A stretch of DNA of 64,000 nucleotides from Bacteroidales bacterium. GTDB lineage: Bacteria > Bacteroidota > Bacteroidia > Bacteroidales > UBA12077. The DNA lies in contig JAEINU010000003.1 in the NCBI GenBank assembly GCA_016342685.1, positions 310,001 to 374,000 of the forward strand. The letters run 5' to 3'. Positions within the stretch are counted from its first letter, which is position 1. Every line of letters starts with the position of its first letter. The notes beneath the pieces are model-generated. The model was given only the letters and a program-made list of their open reading frames with translations. It made no database searches and was not told the DNA's origin. The translations under genes and the position numbers were made by a program. Below are positions 49,552 to 64,000 of the stretch, one piece after another.

Positions 49552-52161
49552 ATGTTTAAGAAACTCATAAGCAATTTAGTTTTAGTCTTTATTACAACCT
49601 TTCTTTTTGCACAAGAAGTTGATTATTCGGAAATGGATGTGATGGATTATAAAAGATCTAAGGATTACATTATAAAAGACATCTCAGTTTCTGGAATAAA
49701 ATACCTAGATGCAAAAATCTTAATAAATTTATCTGGATTAGCTATAGATCAGAAAATCACAGTGCCAGGCGAAGTAATAACAAAAGCTGTCGAAAAATTG
49801 TGGGATCAAGGATTGTTTTCTGATGTTAAAATTACTGCAACCGAGATATTAAGGGATAGTATTTCTTTAAATATTCATCTGCAAGAAAGAAGTCGATTAT
49901 CAGATTTTAAAATACATGGATTAAAAAAATCTGAAATAGAGGATATTAACGAAGTTCTTGAAATTAAAAGAGGGAAACAGGTTACAGAAAATTTGTTTAA
50001 TAGTTCAAGAAGAGTTATTCAAAATTATTTGATAAATAAGAAATACTTAAATGCTGAGATCGATATTGTTATGACTGATGATACAGCCTCAAAAGCAAAT
50101 AATGTTATTCTTAACATTTATATTGATAAAAAAGAGAAGGTTAAAATCAAAGAGGTTATTTATCAAGGGAATAATGTATTTAGTGAAAGAAAGCTAAATA
50201 GATTAATGAAAAAAACACACAAAAAGAATATCAATATATTTAAAGGATCAAAGTTTATTGAAGAGGATTTTGAGGAGGATAAAAATAGTATAATTGCCAA
50301 GTATTATTCGAAAGGTTATCGCGATGTAAAAATTGTAAAAGACAGTATTTATAAGATTAGTGATAAAAGAATAGGATTAAAAATTGATATCGAAGAAGGA
50401 AACCAATATTTCTTTAGAGAAATAGATTGGGTTGGTAATACTATTTATAAAACAAAAGCACTTGATTTTGGTCTGAAGATAAAATCTGGTGATCCTTATG
50501 ATCCGGAGCTTTTAAATGAAAGACTTAACTATGCCGAAGATGCGGTTAGTAATTTATATTTAGATTATGGTTATATGTTTTCTTCATTAACTCCTGTTGT
50601 AAATGATATTGAAAACGATTCTATTGATCTTCAAATTAGAGTTCAAGAAGGAGAGAGAGTTACACTTGATAATATTATTATAAAAGGTAACGACCGAACA
50701 AATGAGCATGTGATTAGAAGAGAGATGAGAACCAAGCCAGGGATGCTGTTTAGTAAAGCCGATATCATGAGAACTCAACGAGAATTAGCGCAGTTGGGAT
50801 ATTTCGATCCGGAGCAACTAGGTATAGATCCTATAAATATTAATCAAGCAGAAAATACAGTAGATCTGGAGTATACTGTGGTTGAAAAATCTACAGATCA
50901 ACTTGAAGTATCTGGAGGTTGGGGAAATAATATGTTTGTAGGAACACTTGGAGTAAGATTCAGTAATTTCTCTCTTGGCAATGCGCTTAAGAAAGGAGCA
51001 TGGCGTCCAATCCCTTCAGGTGATGGTCAAACAGTAAGTTTAAGAGCCACTACAAATGGTAAATATTATTCGTCATATAGTGTAAGTTTTGTAGAACCAT
51101 GGTTAGGAGGAAAAAAGGCAACTTCTTTATCTGTATCTGCTTATCACTCAGTTCAGAAACAATCAACAAGTTATTATATTTTTGATGTTGGGAGTGAATT
51201 TATGAAAGTAACAGGAGCAACTGTTGGCTTAGGACAAAGATTAAAATGGCCTGATGATTATTTCACAATATCAAACTCAATTTCTTATCAAAGATATGAT
51301 TTAAACGAGTGGGATTATTTTATTTTTGATAATGGAACATCTAATAATTTAAGCCTTACTACTACATTTAACAGAAGTTCTGTTGATGCTCCAATATATC
51401 CAAGAAGAGGTTCTAACTTTTCACTTTCATTACAGTTAACATTTCCGTACTCCTTGTTTAAAGAGGATCAATTTTGGAGTTTAAACAGTAATGAAATGGC
51501 TAATATTGACTCTGTTACAGCTTTCAATAATCCTAAAGCTTGGGATGAATTATCACCTGAGCTAAAAGAAACTGCAAAAAATAATGCATACGAGAACGAG
51601 AGAAACTCACGCAAATACGAGTGGGTTGAATACCATAAATGGAAGTATAAAGGAGCGTGGTATATAAAAATATGGAAGGATTTGGTTCTTGCTACGAATA
51701 CCGAATTTGGTTACTTAGGTTATTATAATAAAGATGTAGGATATGCTCCATTTGGTAAATTTAATCTGGGTGGTGATGGAATGTCTGGATATAGCATGTA
51801 TGGAGTTGAAACAATTGGGCTTAGAGGTTATGAAAATAGTTCTATTACACCGACTGATCAAAATGGAACCAGAAATGGAAATGTTTATGAAAAGATTAAT
51901 TTCGAGTTAAGATACCCAATTACCTTAAAACCTCAGGCTACAATTTTTGTTTTAGGTTTTGTGGAGGCAGGTAATGCTTGGTCTTCTTTTGATGAGTTTA
52001 ATCCATTCCAAATAAAGAGATCTGCGGGGCTTGGTCTTAGAGCATTTTTACCAATGTTCGGATTGCTCGGAGTTGATTGGGGTTATGGTTTTGATGATAT
52101 TCCTGGTTCTCCTGATGCTAGCGGAAGTCAATTCCATTTTGTGATTGGACAACAATTCTAA
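49552..52161 (+). CDS. bamA: Outer-membrane protein assembly factor BamA
   Basis: An 869-residue Omp85 insertase. Signal peptide about 1-20 (ends FLFAQ). Five POTRA domains follow, for example YIIKDISVSGIKYLDAKIL at about 39 and VTLDNIIIKGNDRTNEHVIRREM near 370. A 16-strand barrel from about residue 455 begins with YTVVEKSTDQLEVSGGWG. It ends in the aromatic beta signal QFHFVIGQQF. It folds all outer-membrane barrels, including the TonB receptor and T9SS translocon parts. It is followed after 11 bases by two skp genes that serve it. Confidence 0.96.
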   Translation: MFKKLISNLVLVFITTFLFAQEVDYSEMDVMDYKRSKDYIIKDISVSGIKYLDAKILINLSGLAIDQKITVPGEVITKAVEKLWDQGLFSDVKITATEILRDSISLNIHLQERSRLSDFKIHGLKKSEIEDINEVLEIKRGKQVTENLFNSSRRVIQNYLINKKYLNAEIDIVMTDDTASKANNVILNIYIDKKEKVKIKEVIYQGNNVFSERKLNRLMKKTHKKNINIFKGSKFIEEDFEEDKNSIIAKYYSKGYRDVKIVKDSIYKISDKRIGLKIDIEEGNQYFFREIDWVGNTIYKTKALDFGLKIKSGDPYDPELLNERLNYAEDAVSNLYLDYGYMFSSLTPVVNDIENDSIDLQIRVQEGERVTLDNIIIKGNDRTNEHVIRREMRTKPGMLFSKADIMRTQRELAQLGYFDPEQLGIDPININQAENTVDLEYTVVEKSTDQLEVSGGWGNNMFVGTLGVRFSNFSLGNALKKGAWRPIPSGDGQTVSLRATTNGKYYSSYSVSFVEPWLGGKKATSLSVSAYHSVQKQSTSYYIFDVGSEFMKVTGATVGLGQRLKWPDDYFTISNSISYQRYDLNEWDYFIFDNGTSNNLSLTTTFNRSSVDAPIYPRRGSNFSLSLQLTFPYSLFKEDQFWSLNSNEMANIDSVTAFNNPKAWDELSPELKETAKNNAYENERNSRKYEWVEYHKWKYKGAWYIKIWKDLVLATNTEFGYLGYYNKDVGYAPFGKFNLGGDGMSGYSMYGVETIGLRGYENSSITPTDQNGTRNGNVYEKINFELRYPITLKPQATIFVLGFVEAGNAWSSFDEFNPFQIKRSAGLGLRAFLPMFGLLGVDWGYGFDDIPGSPDASGSQFHFVIGQQF

Positions 52162-52172
52162 AACACATTGAT

Positions 52173-52685
52173 ATGAAACGTTTTATTTTTGGTTTAATAT
52201 TTGTATTGATAACCACAGCTAGTTTTTCTCAGAAATATGCCTATGTTGATACTGAGTATATTTTAAGTAATATACCTTCTTATAAAGCAGCTCAGGATAA
52301 GCTTAATGAAATTTCTGTTGAATGGCAAAAAGAGTTGGAGCAAGAATATTCTATCGTTGAAAAGATGAAAGAAGATTTTAAAACAGAAAAGGTTTTGCTA
52401 ACAAAGGATATGATAAGGCAGAGAACAGATGAAATATTTAAAAAAGAGCGGGCTGTAAAAAGTCTTCAAAATAGGTTCTTTGGTCCGGGAGGAGAGTTGT
52501 TTATTAAACGTCAAGAGCTAATTAAGCCAATTCAAGATGAAGTTTATGAAGTTATTCAGGATATAGCAGAATCTGGAAAGTTTGCAATAATATTTGATAC
52601 AGCCGCAGGTGCCACAATTTTATTTACAGATCCTAAGTATGATAAAAGCGATGAGGTTCTGGAAAAATTAGGCTATAAAAATTAA
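52173..52685 (+). CDS. skp: OmpH/Skp-family periplasmic chaperone (copy 1)
   Basis: A 170-residue protein. Signal peptide about 1-19 (ends SFSQ). Mature part starts KYAYVDTEYILSNIPSY, as in Bacteroidota OmpH/Skp, with a long charged coiled-coil at about 40-120 and a final beta strand (KFAIIFDTAAGATILFTDP). It holds unfolded outer-membrane proteins in the periplasm as a trimer. Directly downstream of bamA, and the first of two paralogues. Confidence 0.92.
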   Translation: MKRFIFGLIFVLITTASFSQKYAYVDTEYILSNIPSYKAAQDKLNEISVEWQKELEQEYSIVEKMKEDFKTEKVLLTKDMIRQRTDEIFKKERAVKSLQNRFFGPGGELFIKRQELIKPIQDEVYEVIQDIAESGKFAIIFDTAAGATILFTDPKYDKSDEVLEKLGYKN

Positions 52686-52741
52686 TTTTATAAATTTGTA
52701 ATTAAATTAAAAAATAGAAATAAATTAAAAAATAAGATAAT

Positions 52742-53251
52742 ATGAAAAAGATTTTAGGAATTCTACTTGTGGTTTTATCTGTAACAAGTGTTTTTGCACA
52801 AAAGGAATATAAATTTGGACATATTAATTCAAATGAATTAATGTCAGTAATGCCAGAAAGAGAAGGTATTTCTTTAGAATTTCAAAAGTACCAGCAAATG
52901 TTGAGTGAAGAGTATCAAGCAATGATGACTGAATTTCAGACTCAGGCGGCTGTTTTTAATGAGAAGAAGGCTACATATTCTGATACTTATATAAAAACAA
53001 AAGAAGAAGAACTTTTAGGAATGCAACAAAGAATACAAGGTTTTCAACAAACTGCACAACAAGATTTGCAACAAAAAGAGGCTGAGCTTTTTCAGCCAAT
53101 GATGGACAAGGCGCAAGCTGCAATTGAAGTTGTTTCTAAAGCTAATGGATTTACATATATATTTGATTTAGGAGCTGGTGGAGTTATTTATTTCTCTGAT
53201 GACAGTATTGATATTCTTCCTTTAGTTAAAAAGGAATTAGGAATTGAATAA
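52742..53251 (+). CDS. skp: OmpH/Skp-family periplasmic chaperone (copy 2)
   Basis: A 169-residue paralogue of the preceding gene. Signal peptide about 1-19 (ends VFAQ). Mature start KEYKFGHINSNELMSVMPE, coiled coil rich in Gln and Glu (QQRIQGFQQTAQQDLQQKEA), final strand GFTYIFDLGAGGVIYFSDDS. The tandem arrangement after bamA is conserved in Bacteroidota. It is followed by a strong terminator that closes the cluster's first part. Confidence 0.92.
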   Translation: MKKILGILLVVLSVTSVFAQKEYKFGHINSNELMSVMPEREGISLEFQKYQQMLSEEYQAMMTEFQTQAAVFNEKKATYSDTYIKTKEEELLGMQQRIQGFQQTAQQDLQQKEAELFQPMMDKAQAAIEVVSKANGFTYIFDLGAGGVIYFSDDSIDILPLVKKELGIE

Positions 53252-53273
53252 ATAAAATTATTTCGATAAATTT

Positions 53274-53310
53274 AACCACCCTTATTTGTAAGGGTGGTTT
53301 TTTATTTTGG
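53274..53310 (+). terminator. Strong intrinsic terminator after skp
   Basis: AACCACCCTTA (53274-53284), a TTTG loop and TAAGGGTGGTT (53289-53299) form a perfect 11-bp stem followed by TTTTTATTTT. It ends just before the murI ATG at 53316. If termination is efficient, murI needs read-through or a promoter inside the hairpin region. Confidence 0.9.
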
Positions 53311-53315
53311 TATAT

Positions 53316-54101
53316 ATGGCAAACAATAATCCCATAGGTATTTTTGATTCAGGTGTAGGAGGTTTATCTATTTTCAAGGAATTAATAAAAAGACTTCCGT
53401 ACGAGAGTGTGGTTTATTTTGCCGACAGTGCAAATTGTCCCTATGGTCCAAAACAGAAAGATGAGATAATTAACTTATCAGTTAAAGCTGTTGATTTTTT
53501 ACTGTCAAAGAAATGTAAAATTGTTATAGTAGCTTGTAATACAGCTACAGCTGCAGCTATTTCATTCTTGCGAAATAACTATAAGATATCATTTATAGGA
53601 ATGGAACCCGCAGTAAAACCTGCATCAATCTATTCAAAAACACAAAGTATTGCAGTTTTGGCAACTGAGGGAACATTTAACGGTGACCTGTATAAGGAAA
53701 CAAGTGAAAAATATGCAAAGGGTATAGATTTAAACATAAAGGTTGGGGATAAATTAGTTGGGATTGTTGAGAATGGTTTAATTGAAGAGCCGGAATCATT
53801 AGAATATATAACAGACCTAATAAAGCCATTGCTAAAGAAAAAGATCGATAAACTAGTTCTGGGCTGTACGCATTACCCTTTCTTAATACCTGCTTTAAGG
53901 CAAATACTTCCATCATATATTGAAATTATTGATCCTTCGCCAGCAGTGATAAGGCAATTGGAAAGGGTTTTGTTAGAGAATAATATTTTAAATAACAAAA
54001 ATGAAAATGCAAAATATGATTTCTTTAGTTCGGGTGATACTCATATAATGGAAAAAGTGTTGAGTAGTATTATTCAACAACAAGAAGTAATAAAGGTGTA
54101 A
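53316..54101 (+). CDS. murI: Glutamate racemase
   Basis: A 261-residue cofactor-independent racemase making D-glutamate for peptidoglycan. D11 (IFDSGVGGLS), catalytic C74 (VACNTATAA) and C184/H186 (LGCTHYPF) are all present. A TTG at 53307 would add M-V-Y, but the ATG at 53316 (MANNNPIGIFDSG) fits the family better and clears the terminator. It ends one base before the convergent carbonic-anhydrase-like gene. Confidence 0.95.
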   Translation: MANNNPIGIFDSGVGGLSIFKELIKRLPYESVVYFADSANCPYGPKQKDEIINLSVKAVDFLLSKKCKIVIVACNTATAAAISFLRNNYKISFIGMEPAVKPASIYSKTQSIAVLATEGTFNGDLYKETSEKYAKGIDLNIKVGDKLVGIVENGLIEEPESLEYITDLIKPLLKKKIDKLVLGCTHYPFLIPALRQILPSYIEIIDPSPAVIRQLERVLLENNILNNKNENAKYDFFSSGDTHIMEKVLSSIIQQQEVIKV

Positions 54102-54614
54102 TTATTTATACCAATCAGAATACATAATGTAGTTATTTGCAATCTTCTCGATCATTTCTTTTGTTTGTTCTTGTTCAATTGATTTAATTCTTTTAGCAGG
54201 AACACCTCCATAAATACTTCCAGGTTCAACAATTGTGCTGTCAAGCACTAGAGCTCCAGCGGCAATAATCGAATTTTCTCCTATTACAGCGTGATCCATA
54301 ATAATTGCACCCATACCTACCAAAACATTATCTTGAATTGTTGCGCCATGAATAATAACATTGTGTCCAATCGAAACGTTATTTCCAATATTAATCTGAG
54401 ATTTTTGATATAAGCAATGAAGAACAGCACCGTCTTGTACATTAACCTTATTCCCTATTTTTATAGAATTTACATCGCCTCTTACAACCGAGTTAAACCA
54501 AAAACTGCAATTTGAACCAACTTCAACATCACCAATAATCGTAGCATTATCGGCTAAGTAACAGTTATGCCCTATTTTAGGTGTAAAACCTCGTACTGTT
54601 TTAATTAAGGCCAT
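54102..54614 (-). CDS. Gamma-carbonic-anhydrase family hexapeptide protein (YrdA-like)
   Basis: A 170-residue left-handed beta-helix protein. The three metal histidines of the family are H66 (VLHC), H84 (IGHN) and H89 (IIHG). Repeated hexapeptides run through the protein (NATIIGDVEVGSN, INIGNNVSIGHN). The start is the ATG at 54614 (MALIKTVRGFTPKIG). A TTG 39 bases upstream would add 13 residues not typical of the family. Activity as a true carbonic anhydrase or an acetyltransferase relative is not settled for this group. Confidence 0.88.
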   Translation of the reverse strand: MALIKTVRGFTPKIGHNCYLADNATIIGDVEVGSNCSFWFNSVVRGDVNSIKIGNKVNVQDGAVLHCLYQKSQINIGNNVSIGHNVIIHGATIQDNVLVGMGAIIMDHAVIGENSIIAAGALVLDSTIVEPGSIYGGVPAKRIKSIEQEQTKEMIEKIANNYIMYSDWYK

Positions 54615-54816
54615 GAATAAGTGTTTGAAAAAGTGAATTTTACGTAAAACCAATTAGACTAGTACTTAGAATAGGATTATGAGAAAAATCATACTTTTTA
54701 CATTAAAATTTAATTCAAAAATACTTAATAATTAATTAACAATGCTTAATTTTGTCGTAGAAATAATTCAAATGTATTGTTATAGAAACATTACAGAGTA
54801 ATAATAAAAATATCGA

Positions 54817-54903: not shown

Positions 54904-56748
54904 ATGAGTAAAAAAGCAGATGTCATCGAACGAAATGATGTAGTTATTCGGTTTTCCGGAGACTCAGGAGATGGCATGCAACTTACGGGGACATTGTTTT
55001 CAGATACGTCAGCATTTATTGGAAATGATTTATCAACTTTTCCTGACTATCCTTCAGAGATTAGAGCTCCACAAGGTACAATAGGAGGTGTGTCTGGCTT
55101 TCAGGTGCATGTAGGAGCAAAAATCAAAACACCTGGTGATTATGCTGATATTTTAGTTGCTATGAATCCAGCAGCTTTAAAAGCGACCGCCAAATGGGTG
55201 AAAGATGGAGGTACAATAATCCTTGATGAGGATAGTTTTGATGAAAGAGGCCTAAAAAAGGCAGGGTATAAAACCGATAATCCTATTCTTGAGGATAAAT
55301 TAGATGGTTACAATATTATTAAAGCTCCAATTTCTACGCTAACAAAGGAAGCTTTAAAAGATTCTGGTTTAGATCCTAAAAGTGTTTTGAGAAGTAAAAA
55401 TATGTTTGCTTTGGGTATGGTTTATTGGATTTTTGATCGTCCATTAAATTATACTGAAACATTTTTTGAAAAGAAGTTCAAGAAAAAGCCAATGGTAGTT
55501 GAAGCAAATAAACACGTGCTTCGTGCAGGTTTTAATTATGCTGAAACTGTGGAGCATATGACTCCTTCATATAAGGTTAGTCCAGCAAAAATAAACAAAG
55601 GGACATATAGGAATATAAATGGTAATTTAGCTACAGCATGGGGATTGATTGCTGCTGCTGAAAAAGCAAACCTAGAGTTATTCTGTGGATCTTATCCTAT
55701 TACTCCAGCTACTGAAATTTTACAGGAGTTATCGAATAGAAAAGATTTAGGTGTAAAAACTTTTCAAGCAGAAGATGAGATTGCTGGTATTTGCACATCT
55801 ATTGGTGCAAGTTTCGCAGGTGATTTAGCAGTTACTTCAACATCGGGTCCAGGTCTAGCCTTAAAAGGTGAGGCAATAGGATTAGCAGTAATGACAGAGT
55901 TGCCATTGGTAATTGTTAATGTTCAGAGAGGTGGTCCGTCAACGGGTCTTCCAACAAAACCCGAACAATCAGATTTAATGCAAGCATTGTATGGAAGAAA
56001 CGGAGAAAGTCCTGTAGTTGTTGTTGCAGCTAGTACTCCATCTGATTGTTTCCATTATGCTTTTCAAGCTGCTAAAATTGCGGTTGAGCATATGACTCCA
56101 GTTATACTTTTAACGGATGGTTTTATTGCGAATGGTTCTGAACCATGGAAAATCCCTAGTATGGCAGATTATCCATCTATCAAAGCTCCTTTAGCAAAGG
56201 AAAAAACAGAAGGTTGGAATTCATATGAGAGAGATCTTGAAAAATTAGCAAGAACATGGGCTGCTCCTGGAACTATTGGTTTGGAACATAGAATAGGTGG
56301 CCTTGAAAAGGATGCAATAAAAGGGTCCGTTTCTCAGGATCCAATAAATCATCAAAAAATGACTGATATTCGTGAAGAAAAAGTTCAACGGGTAAGTAAT
56401 TACATTCCAAAATTAAAAGTTGAAGGCGAAGAAAGTGGAAAACTCCTTGTTGTTGGTTGGGGTGGCACATATGGGCACCTTGCAACTTCTGTAAGTGATC
56501 TTCAGCAAAAAGGTCATAGTGTAAGTTTAGCACATTTTAATTACATAAAACCACTTCCTTCAAATGTAAAAGAAGTGTTTAGTAAATTTGATAAAATTGT
56601 TGTTTGTGAGATTAACTCGGGTCAGTTTGTTGGTTATTTAAGAATGACAAATCCTGAATTTAAGTATGAACAATACAATAAAGTTCAAGGATTGCCTTTT
56701 ACAACAATTGAATTAGAAGAACAATTCATAAAATTATTGGAGGAATAG
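54904..56748 (+). CDS. korA: 2-oxoglutarate:ferredoxin oxidoreductase, fused gamma-alpha subunit
   Basis: A 614-residue subunit. Residues about 12-200 are the gamma-type domain (RFSGDSGDGMQLTGTLFSD as family start, then FPDYPSEIRAPQGTIGG). Residues about 215-600 are the alpha part (ELFCGSYPITPATEILQEL, then TSTSGPGLALKGEAIGLAV and RGGPSTGLPTKPEQSD). With KorB it converts 2-oxoglutarate and CoA to succinyl-CoA, passing electrons to ferredoxin, in either direction. The fused form with a separate beta subunit is usual in Bacteroidota. Substrate choice between 2-oxoglutarate and other 2-oxoacids is inferred from family. Confidence 0.93.
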   Translation: MSKKADVIERNDVVIRFSGDSGDGMQLTGTLFSDTSAFIGNDLSTFPDYPSEIRAPQGTIGGVSGFQVHVGAKIKTPGDYADILVAMNPAALKATAKWVKDGGTIILDEDSFDERGLKKAGYKTDNPILEDKLDGYNIIKAPISTLTKEALKDSGLDPKSVLRSKNMFALGMVYWIFDRPLNYTETFFEKKFKKKPMVVEANKHVLRAGFNYAETVEHMTPSYKVSPAKINKGTYRNINGNLATAWGLIAAAEKANLELFCGSYPITPATEILQELSNRKDLGVKTFQAEDEIAGICTSIGASFAGDLAVTSTSGPGLALKGEAIGLAVMTELPLVIVNVQRGGPSTGLPTKPEQSDLMQALYGRNGESPVVVVAASTPSDCFHYAFQAAKIAVEHMTPVILLTDGFIANGSEPWKIPSMADYPSIKAPLAKEKTEGWNSYERDLEKLARTWAAPGTIGLEHRIGGLEKDAIKGSVSQDPINHQKMTDIREEKVQRVSNYIPKLKVEGEESGKLLVVGWGGTYGHLATSVSDLQQKGHSVSLAHFNYIKPLPSNVKEVFSKFDKIVVCEINSGQFVGYLRMTNPEFKYEQYNKVQGLPFTTIELEEQFIKLLEE

Positions 56749-56750
56749 TT

Positions 56751-57770
56751 ATGGCTGATATTCAAACTAATTTTACAGCAAAAGATTTTAAAAGTGATCA
56801 GGAAGTTAGATGGTGTCCTGGGTGTGGAGATCATGCTATAATGAATGCTATTCAAAGAGCTCTTCCTGAATTAGGATATAAAAAGGAGAACTTCGCATTT
56901 ATTTCTGGTATAGGTTGTTCATCGCGTTTTCCATACTATATGGATACTTATGGTTTTCATAGTATACACGGAAGAGCATCGGCAATTGCATCAGGTGTAA
57001 AGGTTGCAAATCCTAACTTAAGTGTTTGGCAAATTACCGGTGATGGTGATTCTATGGCAATTGGCGGGAACCATTTTATTCATATTGTTAGAAGAAATGT
57101 TGATGTAAATATTATTTTATTTAATAATGAGATATATGGGCTTACTAAAGGTCAATATTCCCCAACTTCTAAATATGGATCAGTTACTAAAACTTCACCT
57201 TTTGGAACGGTTGAACAACCTTTTCATCCGGGAGAATTGGTAATAGGAGCACAAGGTAAATTCTTTGCACGTTCAATTGACACTAATCTTAAACTGTGTC
57301 AGGAAATATTCATACAAGCATCTAAGCATGAAGGAGCATCTGTAGTTGAAGTACTTCAGAATTGTGTTATTTACAATGATAAAACACATGCAGCTTTATC
57401 TGATAGAGAACACAAAGAAGATAGAACAATCGTTTTAAGACATGGAGAACCGATGATTTTTGGTAAGAATAAAGATAAAGGTCTTATTCTCGATGCAAAA
57501 CACTTAAAACTTAAAGTTGTTGAGCTAGGAGATGAGTATACTGAAAAAGACTTGTTGGTTCACAATGCTGAAGAAACGAATCCTGGGATTCACCTTATGT
57601 TAACAAATATGGCTTATCCAGAGCTTCCAGTTGCTTTTGGTGTTATTAGAAGTGTAAAAGCACAAACGTATGATAAAGCTGTACAGGCGCAAGTAGAAGA
57701 TGTGAAAGCTAAATCATCTATTAAATGTGTTGATGATTTACTTAAGAGTGGTACTACTTGGGAAGTTTAA
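56751..57770 (+). CDS. korB: 2-oxoglutarate:ferredoxin oxidoreductase, beta subunit
   Basis: A 339-residue thiamine-diphosphate subunit, starting two bases after the korA stop. WCPGCGDHAIM and GIGCSSRFPYY supply cluster cysteines. The ThDP/Mg2+ motif is GDGDSMAIGGNHF ending in NNEIYGLTKGQYSPTS. It forms the active site with KorA. Tight spacing implies co-translation. A terminator follows, separating it from the receiver/ATP-grasp pair. Confidence 0.94.
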   Translation: MADIQTNFTAKDFKSDQEVRWCPGCGDHAIMNAIQRALPELGYKKENFAFISGIGCSSRFPYYMDTYGFHSIHGRASAIASGVKVANPNLSVWQITGDGDSMAIGGNHFIHIVRRNVDVNIILFNNEIYGLTKGQYSPTSKYGSVTKTSPFGTVEQPFHPGELVIGAQGKFFARSIDTNLKLCQEIFIQASKHEGASVVEVLQNCVIYNDKTHAALSDREHKEDRTIVLRHGEPMIFGKNKDKGLILDAKHLKLKVVELGDEYTEKDLLVHNAEETNPGIHLMLTNMAYPELPVAFGVIRSVKAQTYDKAVQAQVEDVKAKSSIKCVDDLLKSGTTWEV

Positions 57771-58025: not shown

Positions 58026-61000
58026 ATGGCCGACCAGATTAATCAGAATAATGACTTTAGTAGGTTGTTAGATGAAAATAAGGAACGTTTAAAAGAGCTC
58101 GCTTGCATAAACGAAACAACAAGGATTATTAAGGAGGGAAAATCAATTGAAGAATCACTTCAAAAAATCACTCTTCGTTTACCCAAAGCATGGCAATATC
58201 CACAATACGCTGTGGCGAGAATTTTTTTTGGTGGGCATGAATATCATAGTCCAGAATTTCAGGAAACGGAATGGACTCAAAAACAAACTTTTCAGACAAT
58301 AGATGGCGAAGAAGGTATTATAGAGATTTTTTATACAAAAAGATTTCCTAAGCGTTTTGAAGGCCCTTTTTTAAAGGAAGAAAGAGATCTAATATTAAAT
58401 CTGTCGAATTTAATACTCGGATTTTTAGATAGTCACAAAGCAAAGGAAATAATTAAGAAACAAGATAAGAAGAAGGAATTACAAGATGGCTCGTCGGGTT
58501 CATCTTCAAAAGAATTGAATAGTCGACAACTTCTTCAAAAATTCTTAAATAAACACAATGCTGATAGAGATTTATTGCATGATTTAATGCCGTTTAAAGT
58601 AAAAGAAATATTATTGGTAGCTAATTTATATGATGCATACAGTATTGAAAAAGAAGGCCGTTTTTCGGATCATATACTTGGAGAGTATAATCAATTAAAT
58701 CTCACATCATTACCAAGGGTAACAGGAGTGTCAACAGAAGAAGAAGCGTTGGAAGCACTAGAAATAAAGCACTTCGACTTGGTGATTTTTATGATGGGGG
58801 TCGATAAAAAAACGCCTTTGATTATATCAAAAACAATAAAAAATAAATTTCCTTACATTCCGTCCTTCCTGTTATTAAATAATAATAGTGATTTAGCTGT
58901 ACTTGAAGAAGGAAAAAGAGATCTGTCTGATATTGATAAAGTGTTTGTTTGGAATGGAGATTCCAAGGTATTCTTTGCAATGGTTAAGTTGATTGAAGAT
59001 AAAGTGAATGTGGATAATGACACAAAACTTGGTTTAACCAGAGTTATATTGTTAGTAGAAGATTCACCCAAATATTATTCGAGATATTTGCCAATGCTCT
59101 ACAAGATTATTATGGAGCAAACACAACGGTTAATCGAAGATGTTAATACAGATGATCTTTATAAGGTGCTTAAGATGAGAGCTCGCCCCAAAATATTATT
59201 GGCTAGTACTTATGAAGAAGCTATGAATGTTTTTAATAATTATAAAGATTATTTCCTATGTGTGATATCAGATGTTTGTTTTCCTAAAGAAAACGAATTA
59301 AATCATTCAGCGGGCTTTGAGTTAATAAAATACATCAAACAAAATATAGTTAATTTGCCTACCGTTATACAATCATCTAATCCAGAAAATGCAAAACGAT
59401 CATATGAATTAAAATCAAATTTCATAAATAAGAACTCAGAAAGCTTACTTCAAGATTTAAAAAGTTTTATTAATTATCATCTTGGTTTTGGTCATTTTGT
59501 GTATCGAGATAATCAAGGAAGACAAATTGCTGTAGCAAAGTCAATGCTGGAGTTTGAATCTTATCTGAAAACTGTTCCCGAAGATTCTTTAATATACCAT
59601 GCGGTTAAAAATCAGTTTTCACTTTGGTTAATGGCCCGAGGAGAAATACAGATTGCTAAGATTATTAATCCTTTAAAAATTACTGATTTTAAAAATCCAA
59701 ATCAACTTAGAGATTTTTTAATCAACATCTTGAAATTATACAGAAATGAACAAGAAAAAGGAAAAATTGTTAATTTTAATGAATCAGCGATACTCGAAGA
59801 AAATAATATTGTAAGTCTTGCATCAGGAGCGTTAGGAGGAAAAGGCAGAGGATTAGCATTTATCAATACGCTTATATATAATTTTAAGTTTAAGGAGCTA
59901 TTACCATTAATAAATGTGCGTACTCCAAGAACTAGCATTATTGGAACCGAAGAGTTTGATTTATTTATTGAAGGAAATCATTTGCTGGATATTATTTTTG
60001 ATGACGACGATTTTTTTACTCTAAAAAATACCTTCTTAGCAGCAGAGTTGTCATATTCATTGAAAAAAAGATTAAAAATTTTCCTGAGATTAATTACAAA
60101 ACCAATAGCAGTTAGATCTTCTAGTTTGTTTGAAGATAGCATTAATCAACCCTTTTCAGGAATTTTTGAAACATATATCTTACCAAATAATCATCCAGAG
60201 TTTGATCAAAGATTAAAGCAACTCATGAACGCTATAAAATTGGTTTATGCTTCTATTTACTCTAAGAATGCTCGAACCTATTTTAAAGCCATTGATCATA
60301 AAGTGGAGGAAGAAAAAATGGCGGTTGTTTTGCAAGAAGTGGTAGGTAATAGGTTTGATGATTATTATTATCCTCACATTAGTGGAACAGCTCAATCTCA
60401 TAACTACTATCCAGTTGCACATATGAAACCCGATGAGGGATTTGCAGTTGCAGCATTAGGGCTTGGACAGTATGTAGTGGAAGGTGAAAAAGCTTTTCGA
60501 TTTTCACCAAGCTATCCTAATTTAGATATTGTTTCACCAAAAGATTTATATAAAGGATCGCAGTTGCATTTTTATGCAGTCGATATGGCAAAGGAAAACC
60601 TAAATCTACTTGAAGGAGAAGATGCAGGTTTAATAAAACTAGATATTGATGTGTCTGAAAAGCATGGATCGCTGAAACATTTAGTATCTGTTTACGATCC
60701 AGAAAACGATCGTATTAGTCCGGGATTAGATTCATATGGTCCGAGAATTATAAATTTTGCAAATATTCTAAAGTACGATTATATCCCTTTGGCAAAAACA
60801 ATTAATGTAATTCTCGATGTTGTTAAAGAAGCTCTTGGTTCACCAGTTGAGATAGAGTTTTCAGTCGACCTAAATAAAGACAAAAATGGATTGGCATCTT
60901 TTTATTTGTTACAAATAAAACCATTAGTGTGTAATGAAGAAGATTACCATGTAGATGTAGATAAGATTGATCGTGAACATTTGGTTCTATATTCTGAAAA

Positions 61001-61487
61001 AACTATGGGCAATGGTAAGTTACAAAACATAAAAGATGTTATTTTTGTAATGCCCGATAAATTTAGCAATACCAGCACCATGCAGATGACTTATGAAATA
61101 GAAAAGTTAAATCAGAAAATGCAAGAAGCAGGTAAAAAATACATTCTTATTGGACCTGGTAGATGGGGTACAAGAGATAAGTTTATTGGAATCCCAGTAG
61201 CTTGGCCACAAATTTCAAATGCAAAAGTGATTGTTGAAATGAGTTTAGATGATTTTGCATTGGATGCCTCACTTGGATCGCACTTTTTTCATAATGTGAC
61301 ATCGATGAATGTAGGGTATTTTTCGGTAAATCATAAATCAATTAAGGATACTATTTCTTGGGAAATATTAGAAAAACAAAAAATAATTGAACAAACCACC
61401 TATTTTAAGCATATAGAGTTTAAGAAACCACTTACTATTACAATGGATGGTAGAAAACGGTTCTCTGCAATAACATGGAATAAATAA
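58026..61487 (+). CDS. GAF/pseudo-receiver/receiver protein fused to a PEP-synthase-type ATP-grasp domain
   Basis: An 1153-residue soluble protein. In order: GAF-like domain (about 15-140, LPKAWQYPQYAVARIFF); pseudo-receiver (about 190-320) in which the acidic pair is A199-N200 and the acceptor position is M256 (FDLVIFMMGV); a second receiver (about 338-480) with E345-D346, D416 (CVISDVCFP), S450/S451 and K469; a helical linker; then the PPDK/PEP-synthase N-terminal ATP-grasp domain from G601 (GALGGKGRGLAF) through R697 (RSSSLFEDS) to E944. A C-terminal segment has GPGRWGT at 1043-1049. The phosphohistidine swivel and PEP-binding barrel are absent, so it cannot be a normal PEP synthase. A phosphorylation-controlled ATP-dependent enzyme is inferred. 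A paralogue follows after 15 bases. Confidence 0.85.
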   Translation: MADQINQNNDFSRLLDENKERLKELACINETTRIIKEGKSIEESLQKITLRLPKAWQYPQYAVARIFFGGHEYHSPEFQETEWTQKQTFQTIDGEEGIIEIFYTKRFPKRFEGPFLKEERDLILNLSNLILGFLDSHKAKEIIKKQDKKKELQDGSSGSSSKELNSRQLLQKFLNKHNADRDLLHDLMPFKVKEILLVANLYDAYSIEKEGRFSDHILGEYNQLNLTSLPRVTGVSTEEEALEALEIKHFDLVIFMMGVDKKTPLIISKTIKNKFPYIPSFLLLNNNSDLAVLEEGKRDLSDIDKVFVWNGDSKVFFAMVKLIEDKVNVDNDTKLGLTRVILLVEDSPKYYSRYLPMLYKIIMEQTQRLIEDVNTDDLYKVLKMRARPKILLASTYEEAMNVFNNYKDYFLCVISDVCFPKENELNHSAGFELIKYIKQNIVNLPTVIQSSNPENAKRSYELKSNFINKNSESLLQDLKSFINYHLGFGHFVYRDNQGRQIAVAKSMLEFESYLKTVPEDSLIYHAVKNQFSLWLMARGEIQIAKIINPLKITDFKNPNQLRDFLINILKLYRNEQEKGKIVNFNESAILEENNIVSLASGALGGKGRGLAFINTLIYNFKFKELLPLINVRTPRTSIIGTEEFDLFIEGNHLLDIIFDDDDFFTLKNTFLAAELSYSLKKRLKIFLRLITKPIAVRSSSLFEDSINQPFSGIFETYILPNNHPEFDQRLKQLMNAIKLVYASIYSKNARTYFKAIDHKVEEEKMAVVLQEVVGNRFDDYYYPHISGTAQSHNYYPVAHMKPDEGFAVAALGLGQYVVEGEKAFRFSPSYPNLDIVSPKDLYKGSQLHFYAVDMAKENLNLLEGEDAGLIKLDIDVSEKHGSLKHLVSVYDPENDRISPGLDSYGPRIINFANILKYDYIPLAKTINVILDVVKEALGSPVEIEFSVDLNKDKNGLASFYLLQIKPLVCNEEDYHVDVDKIDREHLVLYSEKTMGNGKLQNIKDVIFVMPDKFSNTSTMQMTYEIEKLNQKMQEAGKKYILIGPGRWGTRDKFIGIPVAWPQISNAKVIVEMSLDDFALDASLGSHFFHNVTSMNVGYFSVNHKSIKDTISWEILEKQKIIEQTTYFKHIEFKKPLTITMDGRKRFSAITWNK

Positions 61488-61502
61488 ACTGAACTTACAT
61501 TT

Positions 61503-64000
61503 ATGAGCTTTTATACGAATCATCAAGATAATTTAAAAATCGATTTTAACGATACATCATTTAATTTATTAATGCAAAGGCGAATCCATAAAGTATTACT
61601 AATATCTAGTAATTACGATTCGTTTATGTTAGAGGAAGATGGAAGAATTGATGAGCAAATTTTTAACGAATATGTTTCATTAAATTTACGTTACCCTCCA
61701 ATTTTTGTTATGGCTAATTCCTCAGAAGAAGCCTTTGAGATTTTAAAAAATGATAACATAGATTTAGTTATCTCGATGTTAAGTATTGGAGATCGCGATA
61801 CATTTTCATTTGCTAATGAGATAAAAGGCTTATATCCAGAGGTGCCAATTGTTGTATTAACACATTTTTCGCGCGAAGTAACTATTCGATTAGAAAAAGA
61901 GGATTTAAGTGCAATTGATTATGTGTTTTGTTGGTTAGGAAATGCCGATATTTTATTAGCAATAATAAAACTGATTGAAGATAGAATGAATGTTGAATAC
62001 GATGTTGATGTTGTGGGCGTTCAAACAATATTATTAGTAGAGGATTCAATCAGATATATTTCAACATATTTACCAAATATCTATAAAATAATATTTAAAC
62101 AATCTAAGGAATACATGCGCGAGGCACTTAACGAACACCAGAAAATGCTTCGTATGCGCGGTCGTCCAAAAATTCTTCTTGCTACCAATTATGAGCAAGC
62201 GATGGAGTTGTACGAGAAGTACAAGTACAATATGCTTGGAATAATTTCCGATATTACCTATCCCAGAAAAGGAATTAAAGATAAATTGGCAGGAATAAAG
62301 TTATGTAAAAAGGTAAAAGAAGATGATGAGTTTATGCCTTTGTTATTGCAATCGTCAGATTTAAATAATAAGAAATATGCCGATGAGCTAGAGGTTGGAT
62401 TTATCCACAAATATTCGAAAACCTTATCTATTGAATTAAGAAATTATATCATAAAACAATTTGCATTTGGAGAGTTCATATTTAGAGATCCAGAAACATT
62501 AAAGCCAATTGGAAGAGCATCTGATTTGCAAGCACTGCAGCATTTAATATTAACAGTACCTGAAAAATCAATCGAATATCATGCAAGTCGAAATGATTTA
62601 TCAAAATGGTTAAATGCACGAGCTATATTTCCAATTGCACAATTGTTTAAATATCTAAAACTGACCGATTTTCAAAGTGTAAAAGATGCAAGAGCTTATA
62701 TTTACAAAGCCATTTCGAGTTATCGAATGAGCAAAGGGCGTGGAGTTATTGCAAAATTCGATAAAAATAATTTCGATGAGTATCTTGTTTTTTCTAGAAT
62801 TGGTGATGGCTCTATTGGAGGAAAGGCTCGTGGATTAGCATTTATAAATTCTATAATTAAGAAGAACAGGATCTTTAATAAGTTTCCAGGAATTATTATA
62901 ACAATTCCAAGAACAGTTGTGTTGAGTACCGATATTTTCGACGATTTTATGGAAGAAAATGATCTCTATAAAATTGGAATGTCTGATATGTCTGATGATG
63001 AAATACTTGATCATTTTATTAATGCCAAACTTCCAAGTAGAGTATACCAAGATTTATATGCCTTAATCTCGGTTATAAATAATCCAATTGCAATCAGATC
63101 TTCTTCAAAGCTAGAGGATTCACATTATCAGCCATTTGCCGGAATTTACTCAACTTATATGATTCCTAAAACTACAAATAGCACTTTAATGATAAAAATG
63201 CTATCGGATGCAATTAAATGTGTTTACGCTTCGGTATATTACAAAGCGAGCAAGGCCTATATGTCTGCAACATCAAATGTAATTGATGAAGAAAAGATGG
63301 GGATTGTATTGCAAGAGGTTTGTGGAAAGCAATTTGGGAACAAATTTTATCCAACAATATCGGGAGTTGCACGGTCAATAAATTTTTATCCAATCGAACC
63401 GGAGAAATCCGAAGATGGAATTGTAAATATTGCATATGGTTTAGGAAAACAAATTGTTGATGGCGGAATTTCTCTTAGATTCTCGCCAAAGCATCCCAAA
63501 AAGATACTACAGTTATCGTCACCGGATATGGCACTTAAGGATACACAAAAAGATTTTTACTCCTTAGATATGTGTCCAACAAAATTTATTCCTTCAACAG
63601 ACGATGGCGTAAATTTGGTTAAATACGACATTAAGGAAGCCGAAAAAGATTCATCATTAAAATTTGCAGCGTCAACATACGATTTCCAAAATAATATTCT
63701 TCGCGACGGAACCATATACGAGGGTAAAAGAATTGTAACATTTGCAAATGTATTGAAACATGGGACATTTCCTTTAGCCGAAATTCTGGAAACTTTATTA
63801 GAGGTTGGTCAGAGAGAGATGAATAACCCAATAGAAATTGAATTTGCTGTTGATCTAAATGTACCTAAAGGCGAACCCTATGTGTTTAATTTTTTGCAAA
63901 TTAGGCCAATTGTAAATAACGATCAACAGGAAGGTTTCGATATAGAAGACATTAAACAAGACGATACAATAATATATTGTGAATCTGCAATGGGGAATGG
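61503..64000 (+). CDS. Second receiver/ATP-grasp (PEP-synthase-type) protein, cut by the window edge
   Basis: An open frame of at least 832 codons from an ATG 15 bases after the previous stop to the window end. It is a paralogue without the GAF domain: pseudo-receiver at about 30-165 (IDLVISMLSIG, M92 at the acceptor position), true receiver with E180-D181, D250 (GIISDITYP) and FIHK lysine, linker, then the ATP-grasp domain from G434 (GDGSIGGKARGLAF) with R532 (RSSSKLEDS), and the E-I-E-F-A-V-D-L-N motif near residue 779. It ends at ESAMGNG, which matches the start of the C-terminal segment of the first copy (SEKTMGNGK). The rest lies outside the window. Confidence 0.85.
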   Translation, partial: MSFYTNHQDNLKIDFNDTSFNLLMQRRIHKVLLISSNYDSFMLEEDGRIDEQIFNEYVSLNLRYPPIFVMANSSEEAFEILKNDNIDLVISMLSIGDRDTFSFANEIKGLYPEVPIVVLTHFSREVTIRLEKEDLSAIDYVFCWLGNADILLAIIKLIEDRMNVEYDVDVVGVQTILLVEDSIRYISTYLPNIYKIIFKQSKEYMREALNEHQKMLRMRGRPKILLATNYEQAMELYEKYKYNMLGIISDITYPRKGIKDKLAGIKLCKKVKEDDEFMPLLLQSSDLNNKKYADELEVGFIHKYSKTLSIELRNYIIKQFAFGEFIFRDPETLKPIGRASDLQALQHLILTVPEKSIEYHASRNDLSKWLNARAIFPIAQLFKYLKLTDFQSVKDARAYIYKAISSYRMSKGRGVIAKFDKNNFDEYLVFSRIGDGSIGGKARGLAFINSIIKKNRIFNKFPGIIITIPRTVVLSTDIFDDFMEENDLYKIGMSDMSDDEILDHFINAKLPSRVYQDLYALISVINNPIAIRSSSKLEDSHYQPFAGIYSTYMIPKTTNSTLMIKMLSDAIKCVYASVYYKASKAYMSATSNVIDEEKMGIVLQEVCGKQFGNKFYPTISGVARSINFYPIEPEKSEDGIVNIAYGLGKQIVDGGISLRFSPKHPKKILQLSSPDMALKDTQKDFYSLDMCPTKFIPSTDDGVNLVKYDIKEAEKDSSLKFAASTYDFQNNILRDGTIYEGKRIVTFANVLKHGTFPLAEILETLLEVGQREMNNPIEIEFAVDLNVPKGEPYVFNFLQIRPIVNNDQQEGFDIEDIKQDDTIIYCESAMGN

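Follow-up and report, generated by a model that had tools for sequence, protein, structure and literature searches.

What is the function of two adjacent bacterial genes, each of which joins receiver domains to an ATP-grasp domain of the pyruvate phosphate dikinase (PPDK) and phosphoenolpyruvate (PEP) synthase type? They lie at the end of the window, as we call the whole stretch of 64,000 nucleotides of a Bacteroidales genome that was analysed (G000:C38:310001-374000), and are named P1 (58026..61487, + strand, an open reading frame (ORF) of 1153 amino acids) and P2 (61503..64000, + strand, cut by the window edge). P2 seemed incomplete because the window ends inside it; taken complete from the genome (L004:5504-8473) it encodes 989 amino acids and ends ~470 bases further on. 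The initial annotation, made from the letters of the window, saw in both genes a degenerate receiver, a canonical receiver and the ATP-grasp domain, an architecture that Pfam (PF01326) and an alignment of 214 family proteins bear out, and proposed a PEP-synthase-like enzyme. An ATP-grasp domain with its catalytic residues agrees with that proposal, but the proposal misses the strongest clue, which is the linkage of the family to glutamate dehydrogenase (GDH) throughout the phylum. P1 and P2 are probably regulators of GDH, the nitrogen-assimilation enzyme, and we tentatively suggest, at slightly less than even confidence, that they form a two-component-controlled ATP-to-histidine phosphotransferase regulating GDH and perhaps also the adjacent 2-oxoacid:ferredoxin oxidoreductase.

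Linkage of the P2 family to glutamate dehydrogenase

Loci were chosen by the P2 family alone and not by their neighbours, and when all neighbouring genes were clustered GDH was the commonest of them, being present at 35/63 loci with the next family at 7. In the sample drawn from the phylum GDH is found in 16 of 20 regions, often directly abutting, with the order GDH-P2-GDH-P2-GDH in L099 and P2-GDH pairs in L090, L091 and L108. Among 40 further Bacteroidales regions 17 have GDH within ~8.5 kb, where ~0.4 would be expected from ~1.9 GDH genes per genome (binomial 3e-24). Close P2-GDH pairs, with a gap of less than 600 bases, are seen in each of the four possible orientations (24, 11, 7 and 4), and the adjacency therefore survives rearrangement. 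The linkage to GDH is strong and phylum-wide.

Relatives of P2 were found in 256/295 sampled Bacteroidales genomes and in 49/296 genomes drawn from the phylum, while a plasmid search for homologs beyond the Bacteroidota returned three records only, all from Bacteroidales. Within the Bacteroidales, P2 goes with having more than one GDH, P2-positive genomes usually carrying two and P2-negative genomes usually one. With a GDH that is split over contig ends counted once, two or more GDHs are present in 34/40 P2-positive against 2/33 P2-negative genomes (Fisher 3e-12), and within one family in 17/20 against 2/13 (1.6e-4).

The ATP-grasp domain

The ATP-grasp (PPDK_N) domain spans 59829..60977 in P1 (+ strand, PF01326 E 9.7e-33), with K606, R697, E703, D704, E944, Q963 and K965 of P1, and 62811..63959 in P2 (+ strand, PF01326 E 3.2e-38 and VIA structure comparison), with K441, R532, E538, D539, E780, Q799 and R801; residues are numbered by P2 throughout unless P1 is named. 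The 214 aligned proteins were taken from genome loci and comprise 136 P2, 62 P1, 11 'long' and 5 'short' paralogs, and K441, R532, E780 and Q799 are invariant in every subfamily, including paralogs at ~28% identity, with GGK, RSS and ED motifs flanking the invariant residues. At position 801 every P2, long and short protein has Arg, and the 62 P1 proteins without exception have Lys. P1 and P2 fall into two clades, supported at 0.96 and 1.0, when a FastTree tree is rooted on the long paralogs, and the P1 clade takes in a distant member of 983 amino acids that is without the N-terminal domain.

A full AlphaFold2 (AF2) model was available for a P2 relative that is 90% identical (pLDDT 84.7). Its residues 418-934 match rifampin phosphotransferase (RPH) with a VIA Z of 26.2, residues 414-987 match PEP synthase 2ols with a Z of 25.6 over 352 aligned positions, and residues 418-987 match PPDK 1dik with a Z of 18.3. 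The alignments to 2ols and 1dik extend beyond the ATP-grasp domain and through the domain that follows it.

A likely swivel domain at the C-terminus

In PPDK and PEP synthase the ATP-grasp domain belongs to a series of three (PF01326-PF00391-PF02896), and the initial annotation held that copy 1 ends without the phosphohistidine swivel or the PEP-binding barrel and carries a conserved GPGRWG segment in their place. The GPGRWG segment is indeed near-invariant, its Arg (R882) being present in 213/214 family proteins. Pfam finds no PF00391 in either protein, even at an E as high as 1, and no PF02896 PEP/pyruvate barrel. The absence of the barrel is confirmed, but the predicted fold of the C-terminal domain is swivel-like. 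When this domain was folded alone (residues 806-987, pLDDT 87.5, pTM 0.87) and 998 chains were re-aligned to it, the nine best VIA matches were the swivels of RPH (755-865) and PPDK (373-510), with Z 6.6-5.6. Most of the lower rows (PA/transferrin-receptor apical, chaperonin apical, LD-carboxypeptidase, aconitase and Enzyme I N-terminal domains) have, in SCOP, this swivelling beta/beta/alpha fold as well. The model runs through a strand (875-880), the GPGRWG loop, a short helix (896-899), a strand (902-908), the G-[TS]-H922 loop, a helix and a strand (933-938); the corresponding order in PPDK, from the known fold mapped onto the PPDK sequence of the same genome, is a strand, the ETSPED loop, a helix, the GILT strand, GGMTSH, a helix and a strand. 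H922 sits at the topological place that matches the catalytic His of a swivel (AF2 model and alignment) and is near-invariant, being His in 212/214 proteins with one Gln and one truncated sequence as the exceptions.

The C-terminal domain is thus likely, from its predicted structure, to be a divergent phosphohistidine swivel, and we grade this no higher than likely, since sequence profiles give it no support; H922 is plausibly its catalytic His. In P1 the domain spans 60933..61484 (+ strand), with GPGRWG at residues 1043-1048 and H1086 at codon 61281-61283, and is assigned by conservation and by the fold predicted for the homologous domain of P2. In P2 it starts at 63918 and runs to the window edge at 64000 (+ strand), the rest lying outside the window with H922 at L004:8267-8269. 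What is truly missing from P1 and P2 is only the PEP/pyruvate barrel, and its absence implies a different final phosphate acceptor, as the initial annotation had supposed.

Receivers, linker and N-terminal domain

Receiver 1, at 58599..59000 in P1 (+ strand, by alignment), is degenerate, with Met (M92 in P2, M256 in P1) in place of the phospho-Asp. Receiver 2 is canonical and lies at 59037..59489 in P1 (+ strand; E345, D346, D416, S450 and K469 of P1, by alignment and Response_reg 9.5e-4) and at 62016..62480 in P2 (+ strand; E180, D181, D250, S284 and K303, by Response_reg 2e-10 over both receivers). The Response_reg match passes the curated Pfam cut-off in P2 only. Across the alignment the acidic pair is E180 and D181, with Asn at position 181 in 31 P2 proteins, D250 is present in all P2 and in 61/62 P1, S284 is conserved with a single Thr, and K303 is present in all P1 and P2. 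In structure comparison the AF2 model matches solved receivers with a VIA Z of up to 13.6 (3t6k, for receiver 2 of P2).

No HATPase domain was found within the 64-kb window, as the initial annotation had reported for an adjacent histidine kinase, and the genome total is 102 HATPase_c; P1 and P2 are orphan receivers. Pfam found no FHA domain in P1 or P2. Between receiver 2 and the ATP-grasp domain P1 has a linker resembling DUF5752 (59538..59774, + strand, PF19027 E 9.7e-5, just below the curated cut-off) that carries an invariant H525...N529..S532.W534...R538 motif, in P1 numbering. The domain list of the initial annotation was right for the receivers and ATP-grasp domain of copy 1 but overlooked a further sensor-like domain of ~140 amino acids at its N-terminus (residues 11-150, 58056..58475, + strand). 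No Pfam family matched this domain, but by BLAST (E down to 7e-17) it resembles the N-terminal regions of the long paralogs linked to GDH and that of a sensor-nucleotidyltransferase encoded on its own. The full layout of P1 is therefore a sensor-like N-terminus, a degenerate receiver, a canonical receiver, the DUF5752-like linker, the PPDK_N ATP-grasp domain and the divergent swivel-like (GPGRWG) domain.

Paralogs and nucleotidyltransferases

The long paralogs (mostly ~1060 amino acids, 28% identity) end in a nucleotidyltransferase, which follows a sensor-like domain, PPDK_N and the swivel-like GPGRWG domain; they occur in L093, L094, L095, L097, L100, L101, L106, L107 and L089, and nearly all adjoin GDH. 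The nucleotidyltransferase at the C-terminus of those linked to GDH is recognised as PF01909 (E 2.6e-8). A receiver-less paralog of 580 amino acids and a long paralog of ~1060 amino acids lie together beside a divergent class of GDH, and in L099 and L108 separate paralogs each adjoin their own GDH.

Nucleotidyltransferases of the Pol-beta type also stand alone. Two close relatives of the window have one between P2 and GDH (L008:7549-8379 and L010:13835-14695, both - strand), in each case joined to a sensor-like domain that resembles the N-terminus of P1, and in L057 one lies between P1 and P2 (L057:3417-3788, + strand). Identity to the C-terminal part of the long paralogs linked to GDH is ~37-51%. 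Among the loci examined the nucleotidyltransferase occurs only in the long paralogs and these three other loci, and no such nucleotidyltransferase was found in the window genome. In L057, P2 itself is present as two same-frame ORFs of 480 and 503 amino acids (L057:4643-7606), owing to an in-frame stop or an assembly error.

Gene order at the locus

The window and its continuation in the genome give the order korA-korB-P1-P2-MORN-GDH, all on the + strand. korA (54904..56748, TIGR03710 E 2e-193) encodes the alpha subunit of a 2-oxoacid:acceptor oxidoreductase and korB (56751..57770, NF008820 E 3e-73, below that model's own cut-off) the beta subunit of a 2-oxoacid:ferredoxin oxidoreductase, and the synteny of korAB upstream of P1-P2 is kept in the clade of the window. 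Between P2 and GDH lies a gene for a small secreted-looking MORN-repeat protein (L004:8567-9268, equivalent to 64566-65267 and outside the window), which is conserved in several close relatives. Upstream of korAB, at 49552-54653, is a group of ORFs (869, 170, 169 and 264 amino acids, and 183 amino acids on the minus strand) whose order is kept in many Bacteroidales loci; the putative 264-amino-acid product resembles the glutamate racemase MurI. A search for anti-phage defence systems with PADLOC gave no match.

A model for the control of glutamate dehydrogenase

We propose a model in which P1 and P2 would be response-regulator-type proteins whose unusual output is a phosphotransferase made of the first two domains of PPDK and PEP synthase, the ATP-grasp domain and a divergent swivel, without the barrel. 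A histidine kinase encoded elsewhere would phosphorylate receiver 2, at D250 in P2 and D416 in P1, and phosphorylation of receiver 2 may then gate the ATP-grasp domain. The ATP-grasp domain would phosphorylate the putative swivel histidine, H922 in P2 and H1086 in P1, and the swivel would donate its phosphoryl group to a protein rather than to pyruvate. The likeliest target of P2 would be the neighbouring GDH, the activity of which would thereby be set to nitrogen supply; both the phosphohistidine chemistry and the role of GDH as substrate are inferred. P1 may act likewise on the adjacent 2-oxoacid (2-oxoglutarate-type) ferredoxin oxidoreductase KorAB (KOR). For a division of labour between a KOR-specific P1 and a GDH-specific P2 there is a hint only, from the co-occurrence of P1 and korAB (30/35 vs 2/14, with shared ancestry uncontrolled).

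Several points weigh against this model. The modification of GDH by P2 is deduced from domains and linkage, and the synteny statistics cover related genomes, which are not independent. The number of GDHs is confounded with genome size, since P2-positive genomes are also larger, and GDH is still kept by 29/33 of the Bacteroidales genomes that are without P2, which makes P2 no general requirement for GDH. In the clade of the window the neighbour is korAB more often than GDH (32 vs 14 of 49 fully flanked loci). As to the swivel, a VIA Z of 6.6 counts as modest on the scale given with the tool and comes from predicted structure alone, Foldseek on the isolated C-terminal domain returned nothing at E <1e-3, and profile-profile alignment to PPDK swivels failed twice (hhalign probability 0.5%, against a template made from PPDK only and of little diversity). 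The model in its widest form is possible but doubtful; it holds that a response regulator with its own phosphotransfer chain, from ATP to the swivel His to a metabolic enzyme, would covalently switch GDH, and perhaps the 2-oxoglutarate oxidoreductase, across the Bacteroidota, separately from PII/GlnE and GarA and with the nucleotidyltransferase as an optional partner.

It is unlikely that P1 and P2 are instead metabolic enzymes of the 2-oxoglutarate/glutamate node, which, in the manner of RPH or PEP synthase, would transfer phosphate from ATP through the swivel His to a small molecule and would be merely co-regulated with GDH and KOR. The nearest relatives of known structure, RPH, PEP synthase and PPDK, are dikinases of small molecules, the ATP-site residues are kept, and both GDH and KOR plausibly act on 2-oxoglutarate, but the protein stops after the swivel with neither a substrate barrel nor a third domain of the drug-binding type, the two receivers and the sensor-like domain favour regulation, and the separate paralogs of L099 and L108 each stand beside a GDH of their own.

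A non-catalytic role, in which P2 would switch GDH by protein-protein contact as GarA/OdhI does, with ATP and receiver phosphorylation setting its conformation only, agrees with the synteny with GDH and KOR and with a metabolic node that is shared with GarA, a direct binder (PMC5448819). The invariance of K441, R532, E780 and Q799 and the near-invariance of H922 down to 28% identity favour catalysis over scaffolding, and we consider this role quite unlikely. Nucleotidyl transfer is less probable again, the ATP-grasp protein and a Pol-beta-type nucleotidyltransferase together adenylylating or uridylylating GDH in the way that GlnE modifies glutamine synthetase; the fusion of PF01909 to the GDH-linked long paralogs and the position of the nucleotidyltransferases in L008, L010 and L057 speak for it, and their restricted distribution, with none found in the window genome, speaks against it. 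Finally, the separate phosphohistidine carrier that the initial annotation thought necessary is suggested by the failure of sequence searches to find PF00391 or PF02896 in P1 or P2 but is highly improbable, since P1 and P2 themselves carry a swivel-like domain whose His is near-invariant and the only PF00391 and the only PF02896 found in the genome belong to an ordinary PPDK. A simple split PEP synthase is ruled out, as the next genes encode MORN and GDH and neither PF00391 nor PF02896 was found outside that PPDK.

Relation to known systems

The ATP-grasp domain of P1 and P2 shares the catalytic Lys/Arg/Glu/Gln set with PEP synthase and PPDK, and is likewise followed by a domain of predicted swivel-like fold, in which a conserved His begins a helix. 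P1 and P2 differ from these enzymes in a swivel too divergent for PF00391, in the GPGRWG loop and the G-[TS]-HFF motif, in having receivers in front and no PEP/pyruvate barrel behind, and in their linkage to GDH. Both the full model (Z 26.2) and the C-terminal domain folded alone (Z 6.6) align best with RPH in VIA, but unlike P1 and P2 this enzyme has a rifampin-binding domain and a far C-terminal swivel, and it has neither receivers nor a link to GDH. PorX and other Bacteroidota response regulators with enzymatic output place a receiver before an enzyme-like domain that is not DNA-binding, and their kinase is not adjacent. P1 and P2 resemble PorX in joining a receiver to an enzyme-like output and differ from it in that the output is a PPDK-type phosphotransferase and not PglZ. 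In Actinobacteria GarA, with PknG, controls this part of metabolism by binding directly to glutamate synthase, GDH and KDH (PMC5448819). As proposed here P1 and P2 would be, like GarA/OdhI with PknG, phosphorylation-controlled regulators of the glutamate/2-oxoglutarate node, including GDH, whereas GarA/OdhI belongs to the FHA proteins, receives its phosphate from a Ser/Thr kinase and has no homology to them.

In the literature searched we found no mention of the GPGRWG motif and nothing that joins 'pyruvate-binding domain', GDH and Bacteroides, and the one P2-family match with an annotation is named only 'PEP/pyruvate-binding domain-containing protein'. Baggio and Morrison in 1996 reportedly described trans-acting gene(s) downstream of gdhA that affect GDH activity in B. 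thetaiotaomicron, and a downstream segment of 3 kb was reportedly required in trans for the enzyme to be active in E. coli. The P2 gene, itself 3 kb long, adjoins gdh in many relatives and in L125 lies directly downstream of one, at 55 bp and convergent with it, and its size matches that of the reported segment. The P2 family is a strong candidate for the trans-acting gene. A 2D-gel study of B. fragilis lists GDH in three spots, and spots of the same mass and different pI were read there as suggesting isoforms (PMC4539542).

GDH is a main route by which Bacteroides and its relatives bring ammonium into amino acids, and the model, if true, would explain how GDH activity is matched to the supply of nitrogen in these bacteria. 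A large uncharacterised family would thereby gain a role, and PPDK-type chemistry would prove to have been re-used for the control of proteins under two-component signalling.

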